From the NCBI GenBank assembly GCA_037176845.1, contig JAYKXP010000019.1:62001-126000 (forward strand): a DNA stretch of 64,000 bases, given 5' to 3'. The first letter of the stretch is position 1. The number at the start of each line of letters is the position of its first letter. Below are positions 1-31,007 of this stretch, piece by piece. Both the position numbers and the translations under genes were made by a program. The DNA comes from Paramarasmius palmivorus. Lineage: Eukaryota; Basidiomycota; Agaricomycetes; Agaricales; Marasmiaceae. Below the pieces are notes generated by a model. That model made no database searches. It saw only the letters and a program-made list of their open reading frames with translations, and was not told the DNA's origin.

Positions 1-1
1 A

Positions 2-6250: not shown

Positions 6251-7171
6251 CTATTCTCGTCTGTTCCGAAACACGGGAATTTCCACAACAGGCACCAATT
6301 TTTTAACCTTCTCTGCAATGACGTCCGGGCCGTTAAGAATGTGGGAAAATTCTTCCAACAGATCGAGGCATTCATCATCGCCGGTCTGCCCGTCCTCCAA
6401 TCGATCCAATATATGATCTAGTTTTTCAGAACGCTCTTCACCGGCAAGCCGAATCTCCTCAGAAGCCTTCTCAATTTCCTCGGCTATCTCATACAGTCGC
6501 TCTTCATCTACTCCGAAAATCAGAGTAAGCTGACTTTGAAACAAAGAAACTCACCAGCTTTGGTAAGTACCAAATTATGGACCGGAGCCGATACAGTAAG
6601 GGGTTTACTAGCGGAACCCTGAATAAAACTGGTTTTCATATCTTGATCCATATCGCTCTGAAATGTGTTAGCGAAGTTCAGAAGTCGCATATTAGGCTTA
6701 CCGAATCCAAAATTTCTATGATCTCCCGACCGCTTGGCATTTGTTTCAACCGAGCGCTAATGACATTGGGGTTCCGGGACGCCGTAAATAAGCTGATCGG
6801 CTTGCCGACATTATTCGCTTCGTCCAGTGCGTCAAAATTCGCCATGAACGTAGCGTTGATGGCCTCCCCAAGGGTGGGCGCTTGCCGTGAAGCTTCAGTA
6901 TCCATTCTAAAAAAAATGAGGTAAACAAGGAGGGACAGGAAAATAACACTGACCTTTTCGCTCGAAAGGCTTCCTTTTGTTCTGCAATCTTGGCCAAACG
7001 ATTGTCACGGAGTCCCGCGCGCACGCGATTGCGCTGATCGTGAAGTTTCTTTATACCAATTTCAAACTCAGTAAGTGGGCGGCCGGTGTCACCCCAATGT
7101 TCGTCTGTCGAAATTTCTGTAAAAGCACCCTCGTAATCAGGGGTGGGAGTCCTTGAGGGAGTAGAAGGCAT
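6251..7171 (-). CDS. Gene A: PTPDY-motif protein without zinc cluster (four exons)
   Basis: Proposed exons on the minus strand: 7171-6954, 6906-6702, 6657-6571, 6529-6251, giving 262 residues in one frame. The start at 7171 is chosen because residues shortly after it read RTPTPDY followed by an acidic stretch, the N-terminal signature shared with genes B-F. The first exon is charged and helical like its relatives. The last exon (about 92 residues) is strongly coiled-coil-like and acidic. Introns are 41-48 bases with GT-AG ends. A TATAAAAAG lies at 7193-7201. It is transcribed away from gene B. Function unknown; I do not recognise a catalytic domain. By position it is the partner without cluster of the A/B pair, though its middle exon differs from genes D and F. 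Confidence 0.7.
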
Positions 7172-7317
7172 GAAAATTGCATTCCAGTGAGGCTTTTTAT
7201 AGTAACGAATCAGAAATTCCCACACTAATGATAGAATACTGTCGAACGTTTCAGAACATCACGTAATTCTTTGGCATGGAGGATATAAACGAGTTCACAG
7301 TACTCCATACCCCAACG
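7172..7317. promoter_or_regulatory. Divergent promoter between genes A and B
   Basis: A 146-base gap separates the start codons. It contains TATAAAAAG on the minus strand (7201 to 7193) for gene A and GATATAAA at about 7280-7287 on the plus strand for gene B. Confidence 0.5.
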
Positions 7318-8099
7318 ATGTCCTCCTATACGCGTTGCCCTACACCTGACTTCTCCGAAACTGTCCCTGCAGTATTAGACGATGAAATATGGACGGGTCC
7401 CGCCACGAACTTGACCATTGAACAACTCAGGGAAAAAAACCGAATAGAACTGGCAAACATGGAAAGGCGATATCAAAGAACACTTCGGAATATCGAAATC
7501 AACCGAGCAATCGAACGGCATCGAACAGAGGAACAAAAGAAGGAAAACGCTTGGAACGCGGAACAAGCGCGGCGGATCGCCGCTGATGTAACAAGTTCAC
7601 CCAAGGTGATATACAATCGTCCGGATGACCGCGTTTATCGCTGACTCTTTTTCCAGACGTCCAAGACCAATAAATTAAAGCAACCTTCTAATAAAAAAAA
7701 CGACCCAGGTGAGGAAGACCGCTTTCGCTTTTGATTGGACGGCTCACCGTTTTTTAAGCTTGCCAGCGCTGCATAACGAACGGGTTGCCGTGTTTGCAGA
7801 CAAAGACGCGCGCCATTTATTGCTTTCCGTGTCAGGAAGCCGGAGAGTCGTCTTCGTGTTCTATCAAAAAAGGCATATCCTTGACGGATGAAGTGCCCTT
7901 ATCTGTTCAGGTAACAGAGAAACTTGAAGAAATCATCGAAAAAGTGGAAAAACGCGGAAAGGATCGCCAGGTTCAGTTGCAGAATATGGTAGACGGCGCC
8001 ACCGCTTTTATTCGAAAAAGGAAGGAAGTGGAGCATTCGTTTGATCAAATTTTGGATGAACTGGAACGGATTGAAGGGCTTGATACTACCACAAAATAA
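7318..8099 (+). CDS. Gene B: PTPDF-motif Zn2Cys6 cluster protein (three exons)
   Basis: Proposed exons 7318-7605, 7657-7708 and 7759-8099 give 226 residues. The ATG at 7318 is preferred to an in-frame ATG at 7276 because CPTPDF then sits close to the N-terminus as in the paralogues. Exon 1 is charged and helical (repeated RTLRNIE-like segments). Exon 3 opens with a binuclear cluster: CQRC, six residues, C, nine residues, CFPC, then a final C after eight residues, one or two longer than in genes C and E. A C-terminal coiled-coil-like segment follows. Fungal Zn2Cys6 proteins are nuclear DNA-binding proteins, usually dimers through a coiled coil, binding CGG half-sites. It lacks one exon found in C and E, and may be a diverged or shortened member. 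Confidence 0.72.
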
Positions 8100-8234
8100 T
8101 GTATGCGGCCCCCCGACTGAAAGTGCCATTGTTTGCGGCATTCCGATGTATTAAAATTACGTACAATATCTACGGCACCCCGAAAGCATAAATGGCAATT
8201 GTGAAGATGACAGTGTACGTCATTTTAAAATCAA

Positions 8235-8268
8235 TTACATAATTGACGTTGCCACTGTGTATATATAG
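8235..8268 (+). promoter_or_regulatory. Core promoter of gene C
   Basis: TTACATAATTG at 8235-8245 followed by TATATATAG at 8260-8268, about 60 bases before the ATG at 8327, which sits in a good context (AACCATGG). The same 11-mer precedes gene E. Confidence 0.5.
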
Positions 8269-8326
8269 AGGGCCAAAAAGTTTCATTGCTTCCTCACCCT
8301 TTCCCAACCACCCACTCCCAGTAACC

Positions 8327-9441
8327 ATGGTAGCCTATGAAAGAAACCCAACTCCAGACTTTGCAACAACCTACCCTCAAATCTCCGAGGACGAACCAGA
8401 AAGCGATCGTCCCCCGACATCACTACAAGACTTCCAGAAAAGGAACGATCGGACCCTCCGAAACATAAGTCGACAGGAAAGACGCCATGCACAACGATTA
8501 AAAATAGAGGAGCAAATTTTTGAACATCGTGAAAAAGAGGACAGTGCCAAGGCAGAGGCCGAAGAACAAGAACGGCAGCGAGCTGAACGCATCTCGACGA
8601 GGGCTAAAAAACGCCGTGCCCTTCAACGGCTGGTCGATAAAAAGGTGGAGGAATCTCAACAACTTGAAGAAGAGGCTCAGATCAGTGACCACTCCGCTGC
8701 GGCGCCAAAGAAAAAGAAAGCCCGAGTAAGAGTTCCCTGACTTACATTGGCTGAAGCTCACTATCTGAACAGTTAACACGGGGTCGCCGCCCCTTCCTCA
8801 CAGAAGGCCGGGGCTCCGACTCCGATTCCGAAAACCAATCCAACGGCAAGCCGACACGCGAACTGGAAGAACGCACTGTTGTGGTCAAGAAGGTGCGTGC
8901 TCCGTTTAACCAACAAAAGTGCCTAACCGTTTCCTAGAAAAACTATGCACCACCACAAGCACACGAAATAGGATTTGAAGACGGAGTAGCCGAAGCAAGC
9001 AAAAACAAACCGAATCAAAAAAAGAAATCGGCAACCAACAAAGAAAAGGCCAAGGAACAGCCCTCTACGGCAGTTAATAAATATGGCAAGTTCACCCCCT
9101 AAACTCACGGCTTTCCGCTCATATTAGATCAAGCATGCGAACAGTGCGTAAAAGCCAAAACTATCTGCACAAAACAACAGGGTGGCCAAACCGTCTGCTT
9201 TCCTTGCTTTGGGAGGAAGAAGAAATGCAGTCTGGCCAGCACGGCAGACCCGATGCAACGGCTTTCCGAAGCGATCGATCGCCTGAGTATCAAGCTCGAG
9301 ACCGGAGATCAGTCATTTGATGAAAAGGCAGACCGGTTCCAGACTTGGCTGAAAGAACAGTCCAACGAACTGGTCAACCGCGAAGCCGAAAAAGCGGAGC
9401 TTGTACGCCAGTATGTAGCATTACTTAGGCAGTCCGCTTGA
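8327..9441 (+). CDS. Gene C: PTPDF-motif Zn2Cys6 cluster protein (four exons)
   Basis: Proposed exons 8327-8725, 8773-8892, 8938-9085 and 9128-9441 give 326 residues in one frame. The N-terminus carries NPTPDF and an acidic stretch (ISEDEPESD), then a long basic/acidic helix. Exon 3 is lysine-rich. Exon 4 opens with the cluster C-x2-C-x6-C-x9-C-x2-C-x6-C (CEQC, C, CFPC, C), followed by a roughly 60-residue helix. The exon plan and length match gene E (328 residues). Intron 3 appears to start with GC (GCAAGT), a GC-AG intron. It is followed by gene D in the same direction, 200 bases on. Probable DNA-binding protein; target unknown, but CGG-N4-CCG copies surround and enter the gene. Confidence 0.78.
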
Positions 9442-9567
9442 AAACGTATCCCCGTTCTTTTTTTTTGAACGTCTTGATGCAATGTTGATATGTACCGACT
9501 ACTCATTTCGTACAATACATGTTAACCCTCCCTGCATGAGATAATCAGGCACCATCAATACATGTGA

Positions 9568-9590
9568 CTCACGTAACCACAGGTATATAA
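9568..9590 (+). promoter_or_regulatory. Core promoter of gene D
   Basis: CTCACGTAACC near 9569-9579 and TATATAA at 9584-9590, about 55 bases before the ATG at 9642. Gene F has the same CTCACGT plus TATATAAG arrangement. Confidence 0.45.
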
Positions 9591-9641
9591 GATGCCATTT
9601 CTCCTCGCCCATCTCAAAAAAAACCCCCATTTCCCACAACC

Positions 9642-10607
9642 ATGACTGATAACAAAGAATTTCAGAGACAGCCAACTCCCGACTTTGCTGCGGCTGAACC
9701 GGTTATCTCAGACGATGAAGACCTGGTGACCCTCCCTGCCGGCGCAGACAAAGAAACGGCCGACAAATATTTTGCGGTATTACGTAGGAACCTCAACCGG
9801 GGCAGCCGCCGAGCTGAGCAAAAATGGCGGGTCGACGACCTCGTTGCGGCGCATCGAACGAAACAGGAAGAAGAGAGAAAGCAATTTGAAGAGCGGCTTG
9901 CCGAAGAAATGGAACGGGCAAAAATGGCAGAAATGAAACGGGCTGAAGTGGCAGAAAAAACAGGTGAGCGAACATTCGTACGGGAAGCCGAAAGGGAAAA
10001 CCCAATTGCAGAAGACACCAACATGCAATGTCCGGAAGAAGCGCCAGAAGCGATACAACCCGGAAATGCCGAAGAAAGCAATCAAGACAAACCCACTGAA
10101 AACGATACCAACAACAGCGGTTCAACCGAAACAACCGACTCTGTGAGTGTGTTCACTTAGAAATGGATTCTGCTCACAACAAAACCAGATGGCGGTAGAC
10201 CGCCCCCTCCCCTCAGCCGTTGATCCCGCTACAGAGAATGGTAAATTTTTGATCGCTTTGACGTCTCTTGACTGAATACATCATCAGGTTTTGACAAAAT
10301 CGTTGCCGCAATCGACCGCCGAACCTCGCAAGAATCAGAATGCACCGCCAATCTGAAGGACCTCGTATCCGGGATAAAGGCGGGATTCGATAGCATGGCG
10401 GGAGAATATCGGGCTCTCCGCACTGAAATCAAAGCCCTGGTTGAGAGCAACACCGCCATTGCACAAAGCGTCGAGCGGTGGACCGAAGAATTGTTGAAGA
10501 AGAAAGAGAGAGAGCAAGCAGAGTCCAGTAACAGGAATAGGAAAGAAAAACGGTCTTTGGAAGAGAAGTCGACTACGCCCCCAGCCTCGAAAAAACCGAA
10601 AATGTAA
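9642..10607 (+). CDS. Gene D: PTPDF-motif coiled-coil partner protein (three exons)
   Basis: Proposed exons 9642-10142, 10189-10240 and 10288-10607 give 290 residues. The N-terminus has RQPTPDF then VISDDEDL. A long Glu/Lys/Ala-rich helix (about residues 60-120) follows, then an acidic Asn/Thr-rich tail. Exon 3 begins with FDKIVAAIDRR, has helical heptads, and ends in a lysine-rich stretch (KKPKM) that could act as nuclear localisation signal. There is no cysteine cluster. Length, exon plan and the FDKIVAAID / LDKIVDAID motif match gene F. It lies downstream of Zn2Cys6 gene C, repeating the E-F order, so a C-D protein partnership is plausible but unproven. Confidence 0.76.
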
Positions 10608-10822
10608 TCTCTAGTTGGTCGGCATGCCGGGAACATTTCTTGAGTCGTTTTAAAATGTACTGTACGATCTATTGCATTTGAAATTTTGAATAGGCGGCAC
10701 ACCGTGTGCGGCACCCCGCAATACCAATAACTGCAAAAGCAGTCAAATCTCTTTACCAACGGAATCCCGATGAAATATAACACGTAAAATGGAAGTTGAT
10801 CGAACCACTCAGAACATAATTA

Positions 10823-10853
10823 TTACATAATTGTGTCAAAACCACATATATAC
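10823..10853 (+). promoter_or_regulatory. Core promoter of gene E
   Basis: TTACATAATTG at 10823-10833 and CATATATAC at 10845-10853, about 55 bases before the ATG at 10903. The 11-mer is identical to that upstream of gene C. Confidence 0.5.
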
Positions 10854-10902
10854 AGCGCCTGAATTTTTAAATGTATCCCCTTACCTCCACCTCCCTGAAA
10901 AC

Positions 10903-12029
10903 ATGACCTACCAACGAGTCCCAACCCCCAACTTCGACAACACTCTCACTTGCGTTTCAGAAAATGAGGCTGAAAGCGATCGGGAACCGACATCGAGAGA
11001 AGACCTCAATCAAAGAACGGAGCGGACACTCCGCAATATCAATCGGCAGCAGAGGCGACATGAGCGGCAGTTGGAAATCGCACGGCTGACCGATAAACAT
11101 CGCAAGGAACAAGAGACGGCCGCCAAAAACGCAGAGAAAGCTGCAGAGAAACCAGTGGTAGCGGCACGACCGAAGCCACAGCCGCTTAAAACCCGTGCTA
11201 CCCAGGAAGCACAACGGCCCACCGCCGAAACTGAAAATAGCGGTGAATCCGACCCGCCTCGGAAAAGCCGCGGTCCCGTGAGTACATCGCAAACCCCTTA
11301 ATTTCTGACTTAATTCTTCACAGCATACCCCCCTCACCCGCACGCCCCGCACGCCACTTGAAATCGAGGATTCCGACGAGTCCAAAACCAGCGGCAAGCC
11401 GCTCGACCACACCAAACTGCTGAAACTCCCCAAGGAATCCGCGACCGTTGAAAAGATGCACCGAATTGTAAGTGGCTGTCATACAAGCATACAATAAATT
11501 AACGGCTTTCAGCAAAACTATACTCCCACGGAACGCGAGATATACGACGAAGGCCACAAAGACGGCTTGGCCGAAGCCTCCAACAACCCCAACAAGCCGA
11601 AAAAAACGTCCAGAACCAGAGAGAAGGGCAAAGACAAGGAACAGCCGTCGTCTAGTGTCAATACCATACGTAAGTCTCTTTCGCTGTATCTTCGGCCTAC
11701 CGCCCATTCCCTATCCAGCTTGCGAAAGTTGTGCCAAAACCGGGAAGACGTGCACAAGACAACAGGGCGACAAGAACGCGTGTTTTCCCTGTCATTTTGG
11801 CAAGAAAAAATGCTCCTTGGCTCGCACCACGGCCGAACCGATTCTTCGGCTTACCGAAGCTATTGACCAACTCGGAGACAGGATTGAAGCAGCGGATCAA
11901 TCGCTGGACGACAAGATCGACCGCTTTCACGCATGGCTTAAAACAGAAGCCAAAGAGCTGGCCGACCGTCAAGATAAACGGGCAGATCTATTACGTCGAT
12001 ATATCGAACTCCATACGAAAACTCAGTAG
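10903..12029 (+). CDS. Gene E: PTPNF-motif Zn2Cys6 cluster protein (four exons)
   Basis: Proposed exons 10903-11277, 11324-11467, 11513-11669 and 11719-12029 give 328 residues, all phases consistent. N-terminal VPTPNF and an acidic SENEAESD stretch are followed by a charged helix with RTLRNINRQQRRHERQ, very like gene C. Exon 3 is basic (PKKTSRTREKGKDKE). Exon 4 holds CESC, six residues, C, nine residues, CFPC, six residues, C, then a coiled-coil-like tail (LTEAIDQLGDRIEAADQSLD). Likely nuclear DNA-binding protein of the Gal4 fold. Genes C-D and E-F look like a tandem duplication of a two-gene unit. Confidence 0.8.
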
Positions 12030-12277
12030 TTTTAGAGCACCACTATCGACACTGTTACTATCATCGTTTCCGCCATATTTAGATACCCACTTCTTGATAC
12101 CAATACTGTCGGCAATCCCGTGATTTCTTGATACTTGATTTAATCGACAATTCCGTTCATTTACCATGCAATAGAACGTAGACACCATATTTCTTGATCT
12201 CAATCGTAGTATTACGCGTAATATTAGAAATTGTATTTTCCTTGCGGTCGACCGACGAACTACCTAAAACATTCACC

Positions 12278-12312
12278 TCACGTGATGCCGTAATTGTCAA
12301 AAAGTATATAAG
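12278..12312 (+). promoter_or_regulatory. Core promoter of gene F
   Basis: CTCACGTGATG near 12279 and TATATAAG at 12305-12312, about 58 bases before the ATG at 12370. Confidence 0.45.
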
Positions 12313-12369
12313 AAAGGCCTCATTCACAACAAATCCATTCAACCCCCCCCCCCAACACACACAGGTACC

Positions 12370-13341
12370 ATGACATACGACAAAATTTTTCAAAGACAGT
12401 CGACCCCAGACTTTTCAGCGGAAATCCCGCCGATCTCAGACGATGAAGACCTCACCCCCTACGCCAACCGCCGCGATGTACAAGGGACAAAACTATATCT
12501 CCGCAAAAAGAAAGACAACATGAATAGACGAGAGCTTCGAGAAGACCGCTCGCAGCGCATACAGGACCTCATAACGGCCCACCGAGAACAACAGGAAAAC
12601 GACAGGAAAGCGTTTGAAGCAGAAGTTGCGGAAAAGAAAAAGGCAGAAGAGGCGAAGAAGGCGGAAGCAAAGAAAAAGGCGGAAGAACCGAACAAAGCGG
12701 AAGAACCGAACAAAGAGACGAAGACCAATGACAGCGGTCCTTCCGCCAGCTTTTTCGACGATGTGAGTTTTTCTTCACCTACCTACTACGGTCTAACTGT
12801 ATCGTAGATGATCCCTATGGACGCCGCCTCTCCGCCCGAAATGAAGTTAATCCCTCAAGAGTTCTCGTCGCCGTCCGGTACGCCGCCTTTTCTCGAATTT
12901 TGATCTTTTCTTACCTCATTAGTTACGAGTGCCCTTGACAAAATTGTCGACGCAATCGACCGGGGTACCGCCCGAAGGCAGAAAACCGCTAACAATCTTC
13001 AGGAGCTGGTAAACGACATTACGGTGGGATTCGACAAAATGGTAAAAGAATACGGCGACATCCGATCGGAAATCAGCACCCTAGGAAAAACCAACATCAC
13101 CGCTGCTCACAGGATCAACCAATCAGCAGAAAAGGTGGGGAGCAAGTCAGCCGGTGAAGAGTCGGGGACGCGAAGGAAAACGGACGAACGATCAGCCGGT
13201 GAAGGATCGGGAACGCAAAAGAAAAAGGACAAACGGTCAGCCGGTGAGGGGTCGGGAGCCCGCAAGAGGAAGGATAAAGAACGGGAATCCGAAGAAAGTG
13301 CGGCATCACCGCGACCCAAAAAGGTTACCAGAAAGAACTAA
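12370..13341 (+). CDS. Gene F: PTPDF-motif coiled-coil partner protein (three exons)
   Basis: Proposed exons 12370-12762, 12808-12877 and 12923-13341 give 293 residues. N-terminal RQSTPDF then PPISDDEDL; a Lys/Ala/Glu-rich helix with repeated KKAEE and NKAEEP units ends exon 1. Exon 3 starts LDKIVDAIDRG and carries three imperfect repeats of about 18-19 residues around the motif SAGEGSG, very basic, before a lysine-rich C-terminus. No cysteine cluster. Best relative in the window is gene D. The internal repeat suggests recent expansion. Inferred to be the partner of gene E. Confidence 0.77.
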
Positions 13342-13630
13342 AAAACACCGCTACTTGTATTTCTTCAGCCCTCGAAACGTATTTACATATTGAAATAACT
13401 GTAGCCATCCGCAATAGATCAAATATTCGGTCCCCGATTCAACGGCATACCGACGGAAGGACGTTTTAAAAAAATCCAACTCCAACTGAAAATCGGCTCA
13501 CCGCTAGTACCTTTATTCAGTTGACCCAATTTATTATTTCACCGGCATGCCGAAGCATTGAACTGGTTCCCTAAAAATTCAGACGAGGACTCGATCCTGC
13601 CAGCAGACCCTGCTGGCCCTCATGCTACAA
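13342..13630. other. Gap between gene F and the 5' LTR, with possible KDZ exon fragment
   Basis: CGG-N4-CCG copies at 13443, 13494 and 13543 show that the left element reaches this far. From about 13560 a frame reads toward the LTR (…DEDSILPADPAGP). It continues across the retroelement into 33175 if the 5-base GCCCT at each side is a target-site duplication. This is inference. Confidence 0.45.
13616..13620. repeat. Candidate target-site duplication, left copy (GCCCT)
   Basis: GCCCT here and at 33175-33179. Ten or eleven bases (CATGCTACAA) separate the left copy from the start of LTR identity, so the duplication is not flush on this side. Confidence 0.4.
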
Positions 13631-15354
13631 GTTATTAAAGTGAGATCACTTGAGAATGAACCTATATCACTTACGATGGTATCGCTCTCGACGGCCTTGG
13701 ACTTGCCCTTGCTAACACTCTTGGTACGAGGACCAGAAGAGGTGGAAGGAGCTGACACCTAGTAAACGACCAGGTTAATAAACCTAGGAACAGGAAGGAA
13801 ACAGACTAGTGATACCTCTGCCTTGGTCGGAGCATCACGAGAAGTCTTGGCCTTCTAAAAGAGACAGTTAGTAAAGCTACCCAGCTTCGAAATAGGGGAG
13901 AGTACACTTTACCTTGGAAGGTCGAACATCGTGATCAGACCCATCCTTGTAGTCGTCGGATGAGGAATCCTCCAAATCGGCTTCAGAGATGGAAGGCTTG
14001 ACGCGAGAAGCGGGACCAACCTAAATAAGGGTAAAAACACTCGGATTAGTAACTGAAATAAAAGAGCAAGGTGAATTCACGCACCTTTGGCTGACCCAAA
14101 TCGTCGGAAGATTCGTCAGTGTTGGGAAGAGAAAGGCTTACCTGATCTGAACGACGACGCTAGAAAGGAAGCTATTAGGGAAGTGAAATCACTTAGAAGA
14201 TAGATAGGATACACACCTTAACAGTGACCGACTTAGTCGACACAGACGAGACCGGATCTACAGGCTTGGGACCGGATCGGACCCGGACAGTAGAGTCGGC
14301 AGGCTTGTGTTTGGACTCAGCCACCATCTTCTCCTTCTTGATAGGACGAGAGGCGGAAACGGTCTGATGATGAGAAGGCAACTGTTAACGGGTAGTGAGC
14401 TAGAGGAAACAAAGAAAAACTAAGATGAAACTTACGGTTGGCAAGCGTTCAGCTTTGCGTTTGCGAAGCTCAGCGTTTACGGGCACAGGTTGAGGGAACG
14501 CTCGCGAAGCGGAACGAGTGGTACGAGCAGAAATGGATTTTTTGGTGGAGGTACTCGGCTGATAGCCTGAGCTTTCCTGATCGTCCTCGAGTTCATCGTT
14601 CTCGTCGCCACTGGCGTCCTCCTCGGCGTCCTCCTCGTCGTCCTCGTCGTTGTCGTCGTCGTCGCTATCGTCCTGGTGTGGAATGATTCTACGACCTTTG
14701 CTGTCCCTAATGACCTGCTTGGTGCGCGGTCCGGGCATAGCTGAAGTTTGCGTAGTAAGCACGGGGATTGGTGGTGTGACTGGAGTCGATTTACCGGCTG
14801 GCCTGGAAAGTAGCGAATCGTCGTCTTGGTGAACGTCTTTACCGGCGTACTTGTTATTAAAGTAACCAGCCGAGGGAAGATGGAATCCGGATGGCAGAAC
14901 CTAATAGAGATCGTTAATAAGACGTTAAAAGAAATAATAGAAAGAGATACGCACCTGGATGTCGTATTTTCTCTTCCACTGTTCGATCAGGTTGGCGTTA
15001 GGAAGGTAGCTTGTAAGGGCTGCAATGCCAGGGAGAGAGGATCCGACTGTAGACGCCAAATGCGCCAGTGTCACGAGTACTTCCATAGCCTCCCTAGGGA
15101 AAGCTTTGTAATTGTGAAATTGGTGGAGAGAAGCCTATAAACAGCCAAGGTTAGCAAAAAGAAAAGAAAGAAAGCAGCGCGTGGAGACTCACCACGGAGA
15201 TTCCGGCGTGCAAGAAATGCGTCTCCAGTGAAGACTTGTCTTTGGAGGCAGAAACTTGATAAATGTTGTTGATTAATGGGTGGACCCGCTCTATCTCTTG
15301 AAAGATGCGAGAGATTGAGAGATCGTCCAGTCGTCGACTTTTTGAGGCGTCCAT
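13631..15354 (-). pseudogene. 5' half of the antisense Zn2Cys6 gene, truncated in LTR1
   Basis: This is the LTR1 copy of the exons described for the gene at 27743-31007. It starts at ATG 15354 and runs through the acidic and Ser/Lys-rich exons, but the LTR ends before the zinc-cluster exons. Transcription would run out into the flank at 13630. The exons keep open frames. It is a by-product of LTR duplication unless the truncated protein has a role. Confidence 0.75.
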
Positions 15355-15840: not shown

Positions 15841-15859
15841 CATTTTGTTTGGGGGGAGA
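15841..15859 (-). promoter_or_regulatory. Shared 19-base element upstream of antisense genes (LTR1 copy)
   Basis: CATTTTGTTTGGGGGGAGA, also in LTR2 near 31494-31512 and, with one change, at 27125-27143. Each copy lies upstream of an antisense gene start (15354, 31007, 26908). Confidence 0.45.
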
Positions 15860-17521: not shown

Positions 17522-17541
17522 TGGAGCCCACCGCGAGGGGT
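17522..17541 (+). other. Primer-binding site
   Basis: TGGAGCCCACC follows LTR1 directly, as expected for pairing with a tRNA 3' CCA end. I could not name the primer tRNA. Confidence 0.65.
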
Positions 17542-21149: not shown

Positions 21150-24100
21150 AAGATCAGGGAGAGGTTGCATTGGAGATTGTAGCTGATGAAAGGGGTGAAA
21201 TCACCGTAGAATCGTACTTGGTTGCAGAAAATGGAAAATTTAGAAAAGATAAATTGGCTGAAATATATACTCAGGTGGCGAGAAAGACCCCTGAAGTGCA
21301 AGAGCACCTAGAACAGAGGTTAGAACACCTCTTAGAAAGTAATCTCACTCGATTGGAGGGTAGAGACTTCAAAGTAATGGTAGATCAGGTTAATTTACTA
21401 CTCGAGGATCATGCCAGGAGCTCCGGACGGAGTGTGTGCAGTGAATACCTTTACGAAGTGAATGATCAGATACCAACTGTGAAGCTATATGACCTTGGAC
21501 AAAGTCGGACTGAAGCTATTGAGGATGTGTACGATGTTTTCGGCAAATATAAGCCGGTGGCAAAGAAAGTGCGACCTGTCAAAGCTACTTTACCGGAGGA
21601 ATTCCATGTTAAACGTCATATTACCGGTGATCCGTTAGAAGGAATGCCAGTACTACCTACCAATCCACCGGAATTTATTCCTGGTGAACGCTACACCAAA
21701 GAACGTAGTGAAATTATCGAGAACAACTTGGAAACAGGTCAGATATGGCCGGAAGAAATAAAGCTTATACACGCTATGATGAAGGGACAAGAGATGGCAT
21801 TTGCGTGGGACGCTAGTGAAGGAGGAAATTTCCGTACGGACTTCTTCCCACCAGTAAAGTTCCCAGTACTACCACACGTCCCTTGGGTGGAAAAAGACAT
21901 ACCTTTACCACCAGGCATTAGAAATGAAGTGTGTCGTATCATTAAAGATAAAATCAATGCAGGGGTTTACGAACCTTCTAGTTCGTCCTACCGATCGAAA
22001 TGGTTTACTGTCATAAAGAAAGATGGCAAGAGCCTTCGGATCGTCCATAGTCTTGAACCACTAAACAAGGTGACTATACAGTATTCTGGTATACCTCCAG
22101 CTACGGCTGAAGTTGCTAGTAATTTTGCTGGTAGAGCTTGTATAGGACTATTGGATATCTGGGTTGGTTACGATGAAAGGGAAATAGATCCTGAATCGAG
22201 AGATTTGACAACGTTCCAAACTCCGTTTGGTCCGCATAGACTAGTGAAATTACCTATGGGATGGACAAACTCTGTTCCCATATTTCATGATGATGTATGC
22301 TATATCTTCCGAGATGAAATACCTGAAATTACCGTGCCTTACGTCGATGATGTTTCGGTGAGAGGACCGGCAGATGAGTACAAGTTAGAAGATGGTTCAT
22401 TTGAGTGTATTCCGGAGAATCCTGGAATTAGACGCTTTGTATGGGAACATCTCAACAACGTAAATCGTCTGTGTCAAAGACTGAAGTATGCGGGAGGTAC
22501 CTTCTCGGGTCCGAAAGCGTTTGTGATACTGCGCGAAGGCGTAGTATTGGGCTTCAAAGTGGGTCCTTACGGTCACAAAGTGAATGAGAAATTCGCTAAG
22601 GTCGTATTGGACTGGGATCCTGAATCGTTTGAAAGCAAAAGTGATGTGAAATCACTGCTGGGAACTGCTGTGCAGATGCGCATATATATACGTGATTATG
22701 CCAGTATTACCAGGCCTTTGAACAAGGTGTCAGGTGCGAATGCTATATTTAGGATGGGAGATCTAGAGAAGCAAGCTGTACGTGAACTGCAAGAAGCGGT
22801 GAGGACGGCACCATGCTTGAAAACCATCGACTATAACAAATCCTTGTACTTAGCAGTGGATACGTCGTGGCAAGCAGTGGGCTTCTACCTATACCAGGTA
22901 GATGAAGATAATCCTAAAAGGAAGTTCTTTAATCTGTTTGGATCCATAGGTTTGAACGAGCGCGAAGCTAGATTTTCACAACCTAAACGAGAGCTATATG
23001 GACTAAAGATGGCGCTCGAAGCAACGTACTATTACACCTACGGATGTAGAGACTTAACGGTCGAAACGGATGCAAGTTATATCAAAGGGATGTTAGACAA
23101 CCCTAGTGCTGGACCTAATGCTACCATTAATAGGTGGATTGAGGCAGTACGCAAGTATCATTTTGAGTTGGTACACGTTAAAGGAGCAACTCATGGACCA
23201 GATGGGTTATCCAGACCTCCAAAGGGTGGTGCTACTACGGAAAGACCTCCTGTGGATGAGGATGACTATGCTGACGAAGATGATGGTGAACCTGTGAAGT
23301 TTAGAATGGGGGAAGGAGTGATTGAACCTCCTCTCGAGTTTGAAGACTTCAAGGATCAGATTGATTCTCGTGGCGGCTATTTCCTTGAGCGTGCGACATG
23401 TGTAGATGACTTCCAGGAAGAACTGGATGATGCTAGACGAGAAACTTGGGTGGAAACACTAGTGAGTGAACTTGCTCAGATGAAAGCAGGTGTACAGAAG
23501 GCAGATTGCTTTGCTCAGTACCAAGTGTTCCCACCACCGTTGACGAAAGACTGGAAAAAGGCGAATCCGTACATCGAATCCCATAGAACCATGCTAGGAC
23601 GAAAGTTGGATAATGCATTAAGTGATATCACTAGTTACTTAGCTGATCCAGAGTGGCGTAGGCACCAGGATCTGCGATCGGACTATAGGAAATTCTTGGA
23701 GACGCAGTCGCGACATTTCTTCGTTGATGATGAAGGAAGGCTGTATAGACGAAATGAAGAAACAGAAGGCCAACACAAATTAGTGGTATTCAAAGAGAAG
23801 CGTATGTGGATGATGTCTGCCGCACATGACTACTTAGGTCATAAAGGTATATACGCCACAGAGAAACTCTTGAAGAAGCGATTTTGGTGGCCAGAAATGG
23901 AAAATGATGTTACCTGGTTTGTAAGGTCGTGTAAAACGTGTCAGGAAAGGCAGCTTAAATTAATAAAGGCACCTCCTTCACGTACTTACACCCCTTCACT
24001 ATTCCAGAAGGTTCATATAGATGTCATGAAGATATCACCAGCTAGTAACGGCTGTAAGAATGTTATACATGGACGATGTGCACTATCTAACTGGCCGGAA

Positions 24101-25177
24101 GCCCGAGCACTGCGAAATGAGAAAGCTAGTTCTATTGCTGAATGGCTGTTCGAAGATATCATATGCAGATGGGGACCACCAGAAGAAATAGTGAGTGATA
24201 ACGCGCCACAAATGGAAGCGGTATTGCAGTGGTTATACGACAAATATGGCATCAGAGGCATTCGGATATCACCGTATAATTCCCAGGCTAATGGAAAGAT
24301 TGAGCGCCCACACTTTGACGTTCGACAAGCCTTAGTAAAAGCTACGGGAGGTGACTTGAAGAAATGGTATTGGTTTTTGAAACCAGTCCTCTGGGCTGAT
24401 CGTGCTACTATAAGAAGGGGATTAGGCTGTTCACCGTACTTCCTGGTAACGGGTGCAGAACCGATCTTACCTTTGGATATCGTGGAGTCGACGTGGTTAG
24501 TTCACTGCCCTGATAAGGTGTTATCCCATGCTGAGTTAGTTGGCTATAGGGCTAAAGCACTGGCCAAACACCGCTCACATGTACAGGCCACAATCGGACG
24601 TGTTGACAAGATAAAACAAGACAATCTACGTAAATTTGAACGAGAACATAAGAACCGTATAAAGGAATATGACTTTAAACCTGGACAGTTAGTCCTCATG
24701 CGTAATTCCGGAATAGAGAGTGACCTCGACCGGAAGATGTATCCTAGATACATTGGCCCAATGATAGTAATCAGACGTACAAAGGGTGGATCCTACATCT
24801 TAGCTGACCTTAATGGTGCGGTGAAGAAAGAGAAAGTAGGCGCTTTTCGTGTACTACCGTTTGTTGCTAGATATGAACCCCTCATACCGGCTGAAAAGAT
24901 CAAAGAGATCATTGACATATCGCAGGAGCAATTGCAGAAGCTGCTGGACGATGTGGATAGTGAACATACCTATAAGGGTGAAGATTACATCTTTAGCAAA
25001 GTACCTAAGATGAAGATTCCAAAACCTGGTCATGATCTAGTCGATGAAGAAGAGTCTAGTGATGAAGAGGAAGATGACGAAGGGGTGAATACACCGGATA
25101 CCGACGATGAAACAGATCGAGTTCGAAAGAGCAAGCGCATACAGCTACTAGAAGCATATATGCTGGGATTCTGCTAA
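21104..25177 (+). CDS. pol: Pol: reverse transcriptase, RNase H, integrase (Ty3/Gypsy)
   Basis: The frame is open from 21104 and has no ATG near its start, consistent with expression by frameshift from the protease frame. In order: N-terminal spacer; reverse transcriptase with the active-site YVDD at about 22340-22351; RNase H beginning at LAVDTSW (about 22850) with DGLSRPP near its end; integrase with the HHCC zinc domain (HDYLGHKG … CKTCQ, about 23826-23945) and the core D-D-E residues in HIDVM (24020), SDNAPQ (24196) and GKIERPH (24296). The C-terminus has a GPF/Y-like segment (RYIGPMIVIRR) and an acidic tail. All key residues are present and there are no stops, so it looks functional. No chromodomain found. 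Confidence 0.95.
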   Translation, partial: CASGHKFSDYLNELLEDQGEVALEIVADERGEITVESYLVAENGKFRKDKLAEIYTQVARKTPEVQEHLEQRLEHLLESNLTRLEGRDFKVMVDQVNLLLEDHARSSGRSVCSEYLYEVNDQIPTVKLYDLGQSRTEAIEDVYDVFGKYKPVAKKVRPVKATLPEEFHVKRHITGDPLEGMPVLPTNPPEFIPGERYTKERSEIIENNLETGQIWPEEIKLIHAMMKGQEMAFAWDASEGGNFRTDFFPPVKFPVLPHVPWVEKDIPLPPGIRNEVCRIIKDKINAGVYEPSSSSYRSKWFTVIKKDGKSLRIVHSLEPLNKVTIQYSGIPPATAEVASNFAGRACIGLLDIWVGYDEREIDPESRDLTTFQTPFGPHRLVKLPMGWTNSVPIFHDDVCYIFRDEIPEITVPYVDDVSVRGPADEYKLEDGSFECIPENPGIRRFVWEHLNNVNRLCQRLKYAGGTFSGPKAFVILREGVVLGFKVGPYGHKVNEKFAKVVLDWDPESFESKSDVKSLLGTAVQMRIYIRDYASITRPLNKVSGANAIFRMGDLEKQAVRELQEAVRTAPCLKTIDYNKSLYLAVDTSWQAVGFYLYQVDEDNPKRKFFNLFGSIGLNEREARFSQPKRELYGLKMALEATYYYTYGCRDLTVETDASYIKGMLDNPSAGPNATINRWIEAVRKYHFELVHVKGATHGPDGLSRPPKGGATTERPPVDEDDYADEDDGEPVKFRMGEGVIEPPLEFEDFKDQIDSRGGYFLERATCVDDFQEELDDARRETWVETLVSELAQMKAGVQKADCFAQYQVFPPPLTKDWKKANPYIESHRTMLGRKLDNALSDITSYLADPEWRRHQDLRSDYRKFLETQSRHFFVDDEGRLYRRNEETEGQHKLVVFKEKRMWMMSAAHDYLGHKGIYATEKLLKKRFWWPEMENDVTWFVRSCKTCQERQLKLIKAPPSRTYTPSLFQKVHIDVMKISPASNGCKNVIHGRCALSNWPEARALRNEKASSIAEWLFEDIICRWGPPEEIVSDNAPQMEAVLQWLYDKYGIRGIRISPYNSQANGKIERPHFDVRQALVKATGGDLKKWYWFLKPVLWADRATIRRGLGCSPYFLVTGAEPILPLDIVESTWLVHCPDKVLSHAELVGYRAKALAKHRSHVQATIGRVDKIKQDNLRKFEREHKNRIKEYDFKPGQLVLMRNSGIESDLDRKMYPRYIGPMIVIRRTKGGSYILADLNGAVKKEKVGAFRVLPFVARYEPLIPAEKIKEIIDISQEQLQKLLDDVDSEHTYKGEDYIFSKVPKMKIPKPGHDLVDEEESSDEEEDDEGVNTPDTDDETDRVRKSKRIQLLEAYMLGFC
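21119..21165 (+). promoter_or_regulatory. Pro-Pol -1 frameshift signal
   Basis: In the protease frame A-AAT-TTT (21119-21125) fits the X-XXY-YYZ slippery rule and lies within the 46-base overlap of the two frames. After six bases ACCTC (21132-21136) can pair with GAGGT (21161-21165), with a smaller CTG/CAG stem nested inside. A -1 slip enters pol. Confidence 0.65.
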
Positions 25178-25559
25178 GTCAGGAAGTGAATTCACTTGCC
25201 TTGCTAAGACGAAACTTCGATTGGGACCATTGTAAAAGTGAAAACACACATGACATGCAACTTGGATTGTAAACGAGCGACTGAGTTACATGAGGCGAAG
25301 TAAATAAACCTATAAAAGTTATAAACGAGTGACTCTGGCGTTACTAAACGCTAAAAGGAGTTGAAATAAAGCACAGACACCCGTTGAAGAGATATTTTGA
25401 CGGATGACGATAAGAATAATCTTTTTGGAAGTGGATAAACGACGGTCCTTTTCCTCCTTGGTACCTTTGCGAGTCCGAAGCAATTGAAGTCTCTTAGCCC
25501 ATTGGACTTTGAGATGATCAATGATTCGATCCATCGTACCTAGAGCGTCAAGGAACCAT
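25178..25559. other. Non-coding gap between pol and antisense gene 2
   Basis: Contains one GTGA-N2-TCAC at 25186 and near-copies around 25236. No gene seen; it should hold the 3' ends of two converging transcripts. Confidence 0.6.
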
Positions 25560-26908
25560 TCAAGTAGAAGAAGATGAACCTGCAACTGGAGCCGCTGTAG
25601 TAGAATCAGCAGGCTGGTCCTCTGCCATTGGAGTATTTTCCAAACCCAATTTGGCGAGACGCACACGGTTAGCTTCCTCAAGCTTTGAGTAGGCCAACTT
25701 GTACTGTCCCAACATGTATTGGATGTTGTGCTCCAAGGTAGCGACCTCAGCACGAAGGTAGTTGGCAATAGACAACAACGCATCGGGCTGGAGAGTTTCC
25801 AGTTGAAGAAAGGGGATCATGACGGTCTGCTTCAGTACAGAAGTGTAACCGGCAGCGCGTAGAGCGGCTTCTTCTAAAGATGGGAGACGTTAACCACTAA
25901 AACGACTTTAATAAAGTTAATTAACTGCTTACCAGCGGTTTCCTCACGAAGATCGACGGTAGACCTTTCGAAACGAGCGCGTTTAGCACTAGGAGGGTTA
26001 CTTTTGCCTTCGACGGCAGGAGACATAGCCTGGGAACGGTTAAATCACTTGAATACGAAGTGATAACACTTGGAGACTTACGCGAGCGAGCTTGGAACTC
26101 GACTTGGACTTTTCCTTGTCCTTGGGAGAGTCCTTCTCTTTCTCCTTCTCCTTCTCCTTGTCCTTCTATCAAGTGGAGATATCTTAGAAATGATGAATGG
26201 ATGGTGAAAACACTGAGCTTACATCGGAGTTCTTCTTGAAACGCAATTTAGAGGCTTCAGACGCCTTGGGAGCGTGGACAGAGTCTTTTAGGCCTTTGGG
26301 TTCAGCCATCTAGAAGTGAGATAACTTGAGATATGATGTGAACTATAGTGAAGGAAGTGAACATACCTCTGTATCTTCGTCAGGAACCTTGTTGACGATT
26401 TGGACGTCATCCTCATCATCGGAAGGAACCTCTGGAGCAGAGCGAATGCGTCGCTTTTTCTCACCTAGTACAATGATCAGTAAATAAACCAGTAATTGAG
26501 GTGTTTACACTCACGAGCTTTAGCAGCCTGCTCCTGGGATCGGATAACTTCCATCTCAGGCGACGAAGCTATCAAGAGCATCGAGAGCAGGAGGGGTCCT
26601 AGCCCCGCCGTTGACAAAGGCGTGAATAAGCTGCACACAGTCGGTGAACAACTTGTGAGCTTCATTGTCGAGTGCAACGATCTTGCAGACAAGCTTGGGA
26701 CGCTGTAAACCTTCGTTAGCAAAGTGAATACACTTATTGCCATGGTGAAATCACTTACCAGATGCTCGGCAAGCTGCAAAGAGATTGCATTACGAACAGC
26801 AGGAGGGTTGTTGGCCATAGACTTCTGAGCGTACTCATAGACGTCTTTGGTGTTGTGCACCCAAGTGTCGCGTTCAGGCCAAGAGCTGAGAGTGGTTTTT
26901 GGTGCCAT
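25560..26908 (-). CDS. Antisense accessory gene 2: Lys/Glu-rich coiled-coil protein (multi-exon)
   Basis: Minus strand, start at 26908 (MAPKTTLSSWPERD). Exon 1 is 26908-26759. Later exons carry an acidic segment (SDDEDD, about 26415), a Lys/Glu/Asp run (about 26120-26170) and a final helical exon of about 85 residues ending at 25560. Introns are short; several start GTAAGTGA and contain the GTGA-N2-TCAC motif. Near 26560 the frame seems to need a one-base correction or a small unseen intron, so the gene may be damaged or my model wrong. No cysteine cluster. It lies next to the antisense Zn2Cys6 gene, in the same order of cluster/no-cluster as the cargo pairs of the left element. Function unknown. 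Confidence 0.6.
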
Positions 26909-27124
26909 TGGTAGTAAAAAGACTTAGAACAGAGGTGATAGAAGTAGAGACTTGGTGAAAGACGAATTATTGAGCAAGCTTTTATACGCTGTGGCTGATG
27001 GCGCAGGGTATGGATGGACTTGTCGAAAATTTTCTTGCCAAGTTGGACTTCTAGAACTTTACGACATAGATTAGAAGGTGATAACACCGTTCCGTTCGAG
27101 CGGGTCAACTGGGAAGTTGACTTT

Positions 27125-27143
27125 CATTTTGCTTGGGGGGAGA
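27125..27143 (-). promoter_or_regulatory. Shared 19-base element upstream of antisense gene 2
   Basis: One base different from the copies at 15841 and about 31494. It lies some 215 bases upstream of the ATG at 26908. Confidence 0.45.
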
Positions 27144-27742
27144 AAGGATGCTATCACGCGGTTCAAGCAAAAATTTCGCGATTTTCACGCCGAGATTTGT
27201 CGTTTGAGCTAAAATTGGATAACAGAAAAGCTTGGAGACGTGTGGAACAGCATAATCTATAAGCCTGATACACCGGACAAGGGATAAAACGCAAGGAACA
27301 AAGTGGTAAACCAAAACTACTTCCGCGCGCGCCTAAATTGGCAATAGCCCCTGACTACGCGTTTCGGCCGAACTCAGCTTATTTGATTATTGCGTAGACC
27401 TCACATTAGTCTCTAAGGGATCACACAGAGATAAGAAACAGTCTCAAAGAGACTGGGAAACATGTTATACATTTTTAGTACTACTAGATCTACTAGTGTA
27501 CTATTACTGGTGATACAAGTCCGAATAGTAAAGTGTCTAACTAAACTACGGCTTGTGAGTATACAAGAATGTCCTCAACTACTTCTATGATATAGACAGT
27601 AGGGGACAGGGCGATATTCGATGCATCAGATATAAAAACATATAATGTCCGCGCGAAAATACGACTACCAAGCGTCAACCAACGACGACCCAAGCAAGAG
27701 CGACCAAGAAAACACGCAACCACATCCTTGATGATGAAAGGA

Positions 27743-30700
27743 TTAGGTAGATGCGGTGGTGTTTTCGGGTACGGCGGCCTTGACGTTCGAAGAATCGGCA
27801 ACAGGAGGAACAGCCAACCCACTTGAATGCGATGGGGCTGGGACTGTCTTCTCTGCACCGACTTTGACGGCAGGAGAGTCGACGACCATAGGCTCTGGAG
27901 TCGGGGGAACAACCTCGACGGTGATTTCACCACCTTTACTACCGCTGGCGGCAGTTGGAGGGTCCATCTCGTGGTCAGAATCGTGGTCGACGAGAGCAGA
28001 CCGCTTGGAGGGGCCAACAACCTTGTCCTCGACGTGTGGTGCCTGTTGGTGAAGTTAAATTAGTGCTAAGAGGACAAACGAAAGTAAAATCACTTACTGG
28101 ATTGACTGGAGGAAGTGACCACAGTGGTGTACTAACCGGGTTCTCGACGATCCGTTCGACGAACTTCTGTGGGACACGAGAGTTGGGTGGCATAAACATG
28201 TCGAGACCGTCCAAACGATACTCCTTGGAGTTCAAACCAGTAACGTCGATCGTGGTGTTCTTGACTAGTACACGCAGGTCTTCCATGGAGCATGTAAGCG
28301 GATCGGGGCCGAAAGGACGAACCAACTCCAGTTCCTCTTTGGTGAGAGGACAGAGCTCGTCGATCGTCCAGCCGAACGCAGCGCAGACCTTCTGGATTTC
28401 CGAGTCGCTAGCGGTGAAATTGTCGTTTTCCCAAAACAAGTGTTTGAGAAGGATGCGGGGGTCGGCAGATCCACATTCACGAAGGAGTTGTTGACGATCT
28501 TTGAGACGCGCCTCGATCTCGTCGCGAAGACGGAGTAGGTTGCTAATCTGGTCGTTCAACATGTCGAACTCTCGCATCGATTCCAAAATACTGTTTGCCT
28601 GGAAAAGGAGACCTAAATCACCGATAAAACAAGATATTAGAACCGAATATGAAGTAGAATAACTAGTAAACTTACCCATGGGACTAGTCAATCCCTCGCC
28701 GAAGCCTTGGACCTTGCTCTTAATATAATCCCACCACCAGGTGGAGAAAGAGCATCGTTCGAAGGTTTGACGACAAGGAGCGCACTTGATGCTAGCACCG
28801 GCTGCAGGCTTGCACCTCTGTCTGAGGTTGTCGCACTGAGTGCAGGGTGTTTTCTCGCTTTGGCGGACGTCCTGTGGGAAAGAAAGAAACAATTAGAAGC
28901 TATAACTTAAGTGAGATCACTAAGGAACCACTTACGAGGGGTTGAGCTGTCAAGGCAGTCAAGACCCTGACCAGAGACAAGTCTGCGTCGCTGTTGACGT
29001 GCAGCATGTAGTTGAGCTCTAAGTGAGATCACTGGGTTAGAAACAAAAGTATAGAACGAAGGGAGTGAATTCACTTACTCTTGAGGGTTTTGACATGTTC
29101 TCGACGCCCCAACATGTTGTTGAGACGGTCGATGATCAAAGGATCTTCACGAGGACCGACGCCACGTTTGCCGGCTTCGACCAGAACCTCCAAGTCCACG
29201 TTGTCGATTGAGACAGGATGCGCTGGATAGGGCTCTGCTTTGTCGTCGTCGTCGTCGTCCTCGATCTCCTAAGAAAGGAGGTGGTTATTAAAGTGAAATC
29301 ACTTGAGAATGAACCTATATCACTTACGATGGTATCGCTCTCGACGGCCTTGGACTTGCCCTTGCTAACACTCTTGGTACGAGGACCAGAAGAGGTGGAA
29401 GGAGCCGACACCTAGTAAACGACCAGGTTAATAAACCTAGGAACAGGAAGGAAACAGACTAGTGATACCTCTGCCTTGGTCGGAGCATCACGAGAAGTCT
29501 TGGCCTTCTAAAAGAGACAGTTAGTAAAGCTACCCAGCTTCGAAATAGGGGAGAGTACACTTTACCTTGGAAGGTCGAACATCGTGCTCAGACCCATCCT
29601 TGTAGTCGTCGGATGAGGAATCCTCCAAATTGGCTTCAGAGATGGAAGGCTTGACGCGAGAAGCGGGACCAACCTAAATAAGGGTAAAAACACTCGGATT
29701 AGTAACTGAAATAAAAGAGCAAGGTGAATTCACGCACCTTTGGCTGACCCAAATCGTCGGAAGATTCGTCAGTGTTGGGAAGAGAAAGGCTTACCTGATC
29801 TGAACGACGACGCTAGAAAGGAAGCTATTAGGGAAGTGAAATCACTTAGAAGATAGATAGGATACACACCTTAACAGTGACCGACTTAGTCGACACAGAC
29901 GAGACCGGATCTACAGGCTTGGGACCGGATCGGACCCGGACAGTAGAGTCGGCAGGCTTGTGTTTGGACTCAGCCACCATCTTCTCCTTCTTGATAGGAC
30001 GAGAGGCGGAAACGGTCTGATGATGCGAAGGCAACTGTTAAAGGGTAGTGAGCTAGAGGAAACAAAGAAAAACTAAGATGAAACTTACGGTTGGCAAGCG
30101 TTCAGCTTTGCGTTTGCGAAGCTCAGCGTTTACGGGCACAGGTTGAGGGAACGCTCGCGAAGCGGAACGAGTGGTACGAGCAGAAATGGACTTTTTGGTG
30201 GAGGTACTCGGCTGGTAGCCTGAGCTTTCCTGATCGTCCTCGAGTTCATCGTTCTCGTCGCCACTGGCGTCCTCCTCGGCGTCCTCCTCGTCGTCCTCGT
30301 CGTTGTCGTCGTCGTCGCTATCGTCCTGGTGTGGAATGATTCTACGACCTTTGCTGTCCCTAATAACCTGCTTGGTGCGTGGTCCGGGCATAGCTGAAGT
30401 TTGCGTAGTAAGCACGGGGATTGGTGGTGTGACTGGAGTCGATTTACCGGCTGGCCTGGAAAGTAGCGAATCGTCGTCTTGGTGAACGTCTTTGCCGGCG
30501 TACTTGTTATTGAAGTAACCAGCCGAGGGAAGATGGAATCCGGAAGGCAGAACCTAATAGAGATCGTCAATAAGACGTTAAAAGAAATAATAGAAAGAGA
30601 TACGCACCTGGATGTCGTATTTTCTCTTCCACTGTTCGATCAGGTTGGCGTTAGGAAGGTAGCTTGTAAGGGCTGCGATGCCAGGGAGAGAGGATCCGAC

Positions 30701-31007
30701 TGTAGACGCCAAATGCGCCAGTGTCACGAGTACTTCCATAGCCTCCCTAGGGAAAGCTTTGTAATTGTGAAATTGGTGGAGAGACGCCTATAAACAGCCA
30801 AGGTTAGCAAAAAGAAAAGAAAGAAAGAAGCGCGTGGAGACTCACCACGGAGATTCCGGCGTGCAAGAAATGCGTCTCCAGTGAAGACTTGTCTTTGGAG
30901 GCAGAAACTTGATAAATGTTGTTGATTAATGGGTGGACCCGCTCTATCTCTTGAAAAATGCGAGAGATTGAGAGATCGTCCAGTCGTCGACTTTTTGAGG
31001 CGTCCAT
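27743..31007 (-). CDS. Antisense accessory gene 1: Zn2Cys6 protein spanning the 3' LTR boundary (about 12 exons)
   Basis: Start 31007 (MDASKSRRLDDLS). First exons 31007-30846, 30787-30608, 30553-30089 and 30034-29870 are in phase. They give a helical N-terminus, a long Asp/Glu run (about 30225-30330) and Ser/Lys-rich segments. An intron from 29327 to 29269 crosses the LTR/internal boundary. Beyond it come exons with EIEDDDDDD and, at about 28760-28860, CTQC, six residues, C, nine residues, CAPC, six residues, C: the same spacing as cargo genes C and E. A large helical exon (about 28050-28600) and a Pro/Val-rich tail end at 27743. Many introns contain GTGA-N2-TCAC. Likely a nuclear DNA-binding protein made only from the 3' end of the element. 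Confidence 0.72.
29271..29283 (+). other. Polypurine tract
   Basis: AAGAAAGGAGGTG directly before LTR2, the expected plus-strand primer site. On the other strand the same bases are the pyrimidine tract and 3' splice site of an intron in antisense gene 1 (acceptor AG at 29270-29269). Confidence 0.75.

Follow-up and report, generated by a model that had tools for sequence, protein, structure and literature searches.

Introduction

Gal4-type transcription factors have a zinc cluster with a characteristic six-cysteine spacing and recognise inverted CGG half-sites, CGG inverted repeats being the classical target of zinc-cluster proteins. Here we describe a stretch of 64,000 nucleotides from the basidiomycete Paramarasmius palmivorus (contig JAYKXP010000019.1, here C19, positions 62,001 to 126,000; this whole stretch is called the window) in which a Helitron, E19, lies inside a Ty3/gypsy-like long terminal repeat (LTR) retrotransposon, each with predicted zinc-cluster genes and its own palindrome repeated along the element. 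The predicted proteins resemble Gal4-type factors in the six-cysteine spacing and the CGG half-sites, but they are element-borne, score below the Pfam cut-off and have relatives that go with GTG, CATATG and CTWATATWAG motifs.

The nearest parallel, drawn in an initial annotation made from the letters of this DNA and upheld here by a dense element-specific motif and by differing motifs in related families, is with the VANC proteins of Arabidopsis VANDAL transposons, which bind short dense motifs, mainly in non-coding DNA, that differ between VANCs (PMC5735166, PMC10398659). As far as the accessible parts of these papers extend, the two systems share an element-encoded protein, a short dense motif specific to the element, related families with other motifs and a proposed coevolution of protein and motif (PMC5735166, PMC10398659), but VANC motifs are tandem repeats in one orientation and mainly non-coding (PMC5735166), whereas those described here are palindromes and extend into exons. 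Protein type, kingdom and element classes also differ, and anti-silencing is proposed here by analogy.

Fungal DNA transposons, Helitrons included, carry TET/JBP dioxygenase genes thought to help them escape methylation silencing, and in the accessible text this is the nearest fungal proposal for escape from silencing that was found; there, however, an enzyme without a private motif is involved and no retrotransposon with TET/JBP was found (PMC12730594), whereas here a zinc cluster is combined with a motif, and Pfam gave no TET/JBP domain in the frames tested. The HELPO1 Helitrons of Pleurotus carry one to four genes downstream of RepHel, several of unknown function, and for capA, capA2, capB and capC the accessible part of the report gives no conserved domain and mentions neither a zinc-cluster gene nor a dispersed motif (PMC4289320). 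The accessible description of Helitron2-type elements of Fusarium shares with E19 a short asymmetric inverted repeat (CGAGTCC in E19), a 3' hairpin and RepHel (PMC5148889), E19 differing in its length of 26.4 kb, its six cargo genes and the GT that follows the four right ends seen. Among the papers listed from the non-subscription literature on Helitrons with Zn2Cys6, basidiomycete cargo Helitrons, zinc-cluster or antisense genes with fungal retrotransposons, and motif-binding anti-silencing encoded by fungal transposons, no described fungal case of such a system was found in titles and opening lines of abstracts.

On balance we favour the view that the Helitron and its host retroelement each carry zinc-cluster genes together with an element-wide palindrome; the encoded protein likely binds this palindrome as a dimer and so probably marks its own element for activity. 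This view is carried by the anatomy of the two elements, the density of the motifs, their frequency in exons above that in synonymous shuffles, the survival of half-sites in two Helitron copies, and the joint change of motif and zinc-cluster protein among relatives of the retroelement.

Density and specificity of the palindromes

The palindrome CGG-N4-CCG occurs 74 times in E19, 65 times in its relative E9 and 26 times in a motif-bearing derivative, E50, while CGG-N5-CCG occurs 32, 2 and 4 times respectively, so the five-base class is frequent only in E19, the copy with a duplicated gene pair. Other CGG spacings from 0 to 12 are each found 1 to 8 times in E19, and at most 10 times in any of the three elements. 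The retroelement is dense in GTG-N4-CAC (Table 1), and the longer form GTGA-N2-TCAC occurs 22 times in positions 13631-33174 and nowhere else in the window. This agrees with the initial annotation, which had proposed two unrelated elements, each with its own palindrome. When all 64 triplets were examined at spacing 4, only CGG stood out in E19 and E9 and only GTG in the retroelement, suggesting that the sites are sequence-specific; generic hairpin selection was rejected by this test, with E50 as the exception.

The genome assembly (68.3 Mb, 393 contigs) was also searched. The motif AGTGAWWTCACT was found at 144 sites genome-wide compared to 6 for its reversed control, and the GTG-type motif was present in LTR copies elsewhere (at least eight checked single sites). 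For the Helitron motif, TCGGN4CCGA with CGGN4CCG within 30 bases gave 37 hits over both strands (reversed control 7), of which 33 fall in E19, E9, E50 or a stretch of contig C48 identical to part of E9; five CGG-N4-CCG sites at C321 lie in sequence without a match to these three elements. A search with CGGCAWGCCG gave 79 and 62 matches, close to the controls (49 and 53), so single sites are not distinctive and density alone is.

Selection on the sites

Reading frames were shuffled between synonymous codons with protein and codon usage kept (1000 shuffles per test unless stated). RepHel holds 10 sites in E19 and 7 in E9 (shuffle means 0.19 and 0.11), the pooled coding sequences of cargo genes C, D, E and F hold 16 N4 and 20 N5 sites (means 2.5 and 3.0), and the pooled gag-pol frames hold the 11 sites given in Table 1 (mean 1.86); none of the 1000 shuffles reached the observed number in any of these tests. 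The palindromes as products of chance or codon usage were rejected by these shuffles together with the spacing counts.

When E19 is aligned with E9, 19 of its 74 sites coincide in column with a site of E9. Among sites aligned without gaps 19 of 45 are kept, where 1.7 would be expected and where other triplet-N4 sites are kept in 42 of 333 cases, and spacer identity at the kept sites is only 42 of 76 positions. What is conserved between E19 and E9 is therefore the half-sites and not the spacers. Within RepHel, 3 of the 10 E19 sites are kept in E9; outside coding sequence the aligner may be biased towards placing motifs opposite each other.

Motif and zinc-cluster protein among relatives of the retroelement

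A genome search with the antisense zinc-cluster frame of the retroelement gave 30 matches, of which 23 loci were tabulated, the other 7 overlapping those places. AGTGA-N2-TCACT was present at all 13 loci (12 places) whose zinc protein is 39-100% identical to that of the window. All four loci at 32-33% identity lacked this motif and held 5-7 copies each of CTWATATWAG, and five of the six at 25-28% held 12-18 copies each of CATATG. One member of the last group, C261, has 28 CATATG in 8.4 kb (2.6 expected), including 7 in pol where 2.3 are expected by shuffle (0 of 300 shuffles reaching this); C30, which carries CTWATATWAG, has 13 in 9.1 kb, including 3 in pol where the shuffle mean is 0.23 (1 of 300). 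CTWATATWAG is absent from the window retroelement, E19, E9, C261 and C267. Motif density is confined to its own family, with other motifs in related families and C267 as the exception, and one genome holds CGG-N4/N5-CCG, GTG-N4-CAC, CATATG and CTWATATWAG.

The polymerase has changed far less than the zinc-cluster protein: between C30 and the window element a polymerase piece is 81% identical, pieces of the partner 41-60% and the zinc protein 32%, and for C261 the polymerase piece is 68% and the zinc protein 26% identical. In the aligned pol stretch none of the five window sites survives in C30, one having been lost by a single base, and neither of the two C30 sites is present in the window element.

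The zinc-cluster genes and their neighbours

Zn2Cys6 proteins (PF00172) have the spacing C-x2-C-x6-C-x5-12-C-x2-C-x6-8-C, which is satisfied by Helitron cargo genes B, C and E and by the antisense gene of the retroelement. The exact spacing C-x2-C-x6-C-x9-C-x2-C-x6-C that the initial annotation had read in C (9136), E (11721) and the antisense gene (28844) was confirmed, gene B differing by x8 in its last interval (x4 in its E9 copy). Two of the proteins carry the UniRef label Zn(2)-C6 fungal-type domain. Profile matches in the PDB (best E 0.0054) were for the most part to coiled-coil proteins, with no zinc-cluster protein among them, and three protein database searches matched P. palmivorus proteins only (two of these scored just the 7996 candidates sharing most words). 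Gene E is identical to the NCBI protein VNI00_006309 of this species (100% over 328 amino acids), and an annotated relative, VNI00_014895, is 70% identical to the antisense zinc-cluster protein over the part searched.

The annotated arrangement in which a gene without a cluster adjoins each gene with one also stood, D lying by C, F by E, A by B in divergent orientation, and in the retroelement the antisense gene at 26908-25560 by the zinc-cluster gene. Genes C and E become open frames on splicing. All six cargo genes have a PTPDF-like motif near their start, and the six-cysteine cluster is found in B, C and E and not in A, D and F. Genes B to F match each other's counterparts in E9 and hence form one paralogous family, in which the coiled-coil partner proteins are cluster-less paralogues of the zinc-cluster proteins; gene A matched only its own E9 counterpart, its kinship to B-F being the shared motif alone. 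In E9 the cargo order is A, B, C/E, D/F, and the single C/E and D/F counterparts indicate that the C-D/E-F pair was duplicated in E19.

Possible role of the palindromes

We suggest that the zinc-cluster protein would dimerise and read inverted triplets four bases apart, as in CGG-N4-CCG and GTG-N4-CAC, CTW-ATAT-WAG being readable in the same way, with the neighbouring coiled-coil protein probably acting as its partner. As for plant VANC, binding along the whole element may then open or protect chromatin and raise expression, which seems the most likely function, and a private motif would spare the host and rival elements this effect. After the pair duplication in E19, one pair may have moved to the five-base spacer.

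More widely, we regard it as an evenly balanced proposition that two or more classes of fungal mobile element use private passwords, each a zinc-cluster dimer with an exon-spanning palindrome that would protect or activate only its own kind, and that these passwords coevolve faster than the polymerase and can split by duplication of the gene pair. Element-encoded sequence-specific anti-silencing is known in detail from plant VANDAL elements; if true, this would be a second, independent invention, in fungi and in rolling-circle and LTR elements, and mobile DNA in general would use private recognition motifs as a strategy. The coevolution of DNA recognition becomes directly testable here, since one genome contains four motifs and their proteins, two close families with exchanged motifs (C30 and the window element), and a duplication of the gene pair accompanied by a new class of spacer.

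The CpG (cytosine followed by guanine) ratio, with motif half-sites masked, shows strong depletion in the motif-poor RepHel (0.36 in E19 and 0.23 in E9) and none in the motif-rich cargo (1.03 and 1.16), and it is higher where motifs are denser (rho 0.72 and 0.86; 0.45 and 0.86 as partial correlations given GC content), GpC showing no clear trend. This is a weak hint that coverage of the element may promote its expression or shield it. Taken as a proxy for methylation, the ratio is circular in part, since loss of CpG would remove CGG sites too.

That circularity is one of several points that weigh against the view we favour. All relatives were drawn from one genome. C267, the sixth locus at 25-28% identity, has a zinc-cluster gene and no enriched palindrome in 8.4 kb; the four CTWATATWAG loci each hold two GTG-N4-CAC sites as well; and CTWATATWAG is common genome-wide (379 compared to 319 for the reversed control), so only its density is telling. 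Some single tests were weaker, with 15 of 1000 shuffles reaching the observed N4 count in gene C, 10 and 8 of 1000 in two gag-pol frames, and 29 of 1000 for N5 in the RepHel of E19, and E50 has an excess of TGT-N4-ACA too (37, where 9.4 are expected). Pfam Zn_clus remained below its 21-bit cut-off for gene E (12.2-13.2 bits) and its E9 orthologue (16.8) and gave no reported match for genes B and C and the retroelement gene. Structure prediction, which had been proposed with the initial annotation for the Zn2Cys6 domains, gave two unusably poor models (predicted local distance difference test scores of 60 and 51). The core of the earlier hypothesis, that each element encodes a factor for its own motif, is strengthened by the joint change of motif and protein, the kept half-sites and the exon excess, and weakened by C267, the sub-cut-off Zn_clus scores and the poor models; the hypothesis as a whole is partly supported, with the two-protein complex and its role standing as predictions. 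Zinc-cluster genes of this kind do occur in the genome that holds the motif-bearing copies, the opposite outcome having been named beforehand as the one that would refute it.

The strongest alternative, though an unlikely one, is that the proteins are ordinary self-activating transcription factors which bind palindromes near their own promoters, the remaining sites being by-products. Zinc-cluster proteins are mostly activators, the cargo region is rich in sites, and of the 12 introns in the antisense zinc-cluster gene 5 contain them, all of which such factors would explain; the sites also exceed shuffles in RepHel, gag-pol and cargo exons and are spread element-wide, which they would not. We see only a slim chance that the system counts copies, with bound protein repressing its own element, or the copies titrating the protein, so that proliferation stops. 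Motifs in at least eight LTR copies elsewhere would suit this, as would E50, a motif-bearing derivative that yielded no zinc cluster and might serve to titrate a protein, but the 40 LTR matches scored of 198 candidates are 93-100% identical, suggesting that the family spread recently, and fast switching of motifs fits escape better than control.

Slimmer again is the chance that a host factor, which the elements evolve to attract or avoid, recognises the palindromes, the zinc-cluster genes being incidental. Binding by the elements' own proteins is itself a prediction, which leaves room for such a factor, but each retroelement motif accompanies one clade of element-borne zinc proteins, and the 3' stretches of four other RepHel genes (4444, 5000, 5000 and 5000 bases; proteins 50-53% identical to that of E19), a control that covers the 3' side, showed no PTPDF, cluster pattern or notable enriched palindrome. 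It is very improbable that the palindromes act as hairpins in rolling-circle or packaged strands, for although CGG-N4-CCG could form a short stem with a four-base loop and TGT is enriched besides CGG at spacing 4 in E50, only one of the 64 triplets stands out in each of E19, E9 and the retroelement and CATATG leaves no loop.

Structure of the two elements

The left block of the window is the 3' cargo end of E19, inside the Ty3/gypsy-like element (Table 1). A retroelement copy at contig positions 39999-49231 (99.4% identical to window 20062-29287) breaks off at 49231 and continues at window 13631, which places between the two points a 26.4-kb insertion, E19 (C19:49229-75630, its left limit at window -12771). 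By the retroelement gene model, E19 sits in an intron (29327-29269) of the antisense gene of the upstream copy, and the uninterrupted copy near window 29284-29288 serves as empty site; the junction is ambiguous by up to 4 bases (GTTA), and a 4-base target duplication is compatible with E19 alone.

E19 has Rep and a PIF1-type helicase, conserved ends, a 3' hairpin and an empty site. Judged by its genes it is an autonomous Helitron, and its open RepHel frame scores above the Pfam cut-offs for both Helitron_like_N (115 bits) and PIF1 (84 bits). The left end TTACGAGTCCGAG is common to E19, E9 (C9:457311-480732) and E50 (C50:134299-147914, minus strand), the last 50 bases of E19 recur at three further genomic places at 89-94% identity, and GT follows all four right ends seen. 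The 7-base CGAGTCC occurs inverted near the 3' end, and E19 is at most a candidate member of the Helitron2 subgroup, whose marks are an asymmetric terminal inverted repeat and a hairpin at either end. The RepHel of E9 is 73% identical to that of E19, and no RepHel match was found in E50. A genome search with RepHel gave 59 scored matches, 43 of them in stop-free frames of at least 2400 amino acids; those other than E9 are 47-53% identical to E19, an unusual diversity of apparently intact Helitrons for one genome.

The right element is a Ty3/gypsy LTR retrotransposon, having LTRs, RT-RNaseH and integrase (RT_RNaseH, RT_RNaseH_2 and Integrase_H2C2 above the Pfam cut-off), the class being assigned by domain order, and pol and the 3' LTR flank its two antisense genes. 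The 3.9-kb repeat at 13631-17521 was rejected as a single LTR, being the end of the upstream copy followed by an LTR of 1.66 kb.

Table 1. Features of the two elements, in window coordinates.
Feature	Position	Strand	Basis or remark
RepHel, 3' two thirds	1..5539	+	frame starts at window -2749; 2763 codons between stops
Intron-bearing tRNA-Ser-like sequence within the Helitron	5875..5969	-	aragorn, introns allowed; no call in default search
39 CGG-N4-CCG and 23 CGG-N5-CCG	6000..13630		coding and non-coding; other spacings 0-15 at most 6 each
Cargo gene A, without cluster; PTPDY close to the N-terminus, coiled coil judged by eye	6251..7171	-	reading frames
Cargo gene B, zinc cluster starting at 7761 and ending with an x8 interval	7276..8099	+	reading frames
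Cargo gene C, zinc cluster 2-6-9-2-6 from 9136	8327..9441	+	introns 8726-8772, 8893-8937, 9086-9127
Cargo gene D, partner without cluster	9642..10607	+	introns 10143-10188, 10241-10287
Cargo gene E, zinc cluster 2-6-9-2-6 from 11721	10903..12029	+	introns 11278-11323, 11468-11512, 11670-11718
Cargo gene F, partner without cluster	12370..13341	+	introns 12763-12807, 12878-12922
3' terminal hairpin of Helitron, 8-bp stem	13599..13617	+	similar end at three other places
Right end of Helitron (CTACAA, then GT)	13630..13631		comparison with empty site and other right ends
End of upstream tandem retroelement copy, with start of its antisense gene	13631..15859		repeat comparison
31 GTG-N4-CAC (core AGTGANNTCACT)	15447..33174		3.9 expected
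LTR (1.66 kb) common to upstream and downstream retroelement copies	15860..17519	+	borders from LTR copies elsewhere
gag-pol frames, Ty3/gypsy-like, 11 GTG-N4-CAC sites	17713..25177	+	frames, Pfam
Antisense partner gene, charged, no cluster	25560..26908	-	splice by eye; 41-60% identical pieces in C30 relative
Antisense zinc-cluster gene, 840-amino-acid model, 12 introns, cluster 28844-28752	27743..31007	-	splice model
3' LTR	31513..33172	+	borders from LTR copies elsewhere

Other features of the elements and the window

Sequences resembling tRNA were called at E19 positions 731-823, 1337-1425, 1808-1896 and 18647-18741 (the last being the one in Table 1), mostly in the 5' part; five were called in E9, one without a named tRNA, and none in E50. 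They could serve as boundaries or Pol III promoters. A well conserved Helitron protein without a Pfam match (E19 9026-9634, E9 9349-9843) is 75% identical between the two copies. The palindromes of E50 have long flanking symmetry and are grouped near its 5' end, and its 1163-codon frame resembles retrotransposon gag by eye.

Elsewhere, the window holds the remains of a KDZ transposon (34155-36213; CxC4 above and KDZ transposase below the Pfam cut-off) and tandemly duplicated NACHT/NPHP3-type NTPase genes (42772-49902; about 83% identical DNA over 1.8 kb). Positions 52600-64000 consist of repeated units, the longest pair lying 3.4 kb apart, and one frame there matches dienelactone hydrolase.

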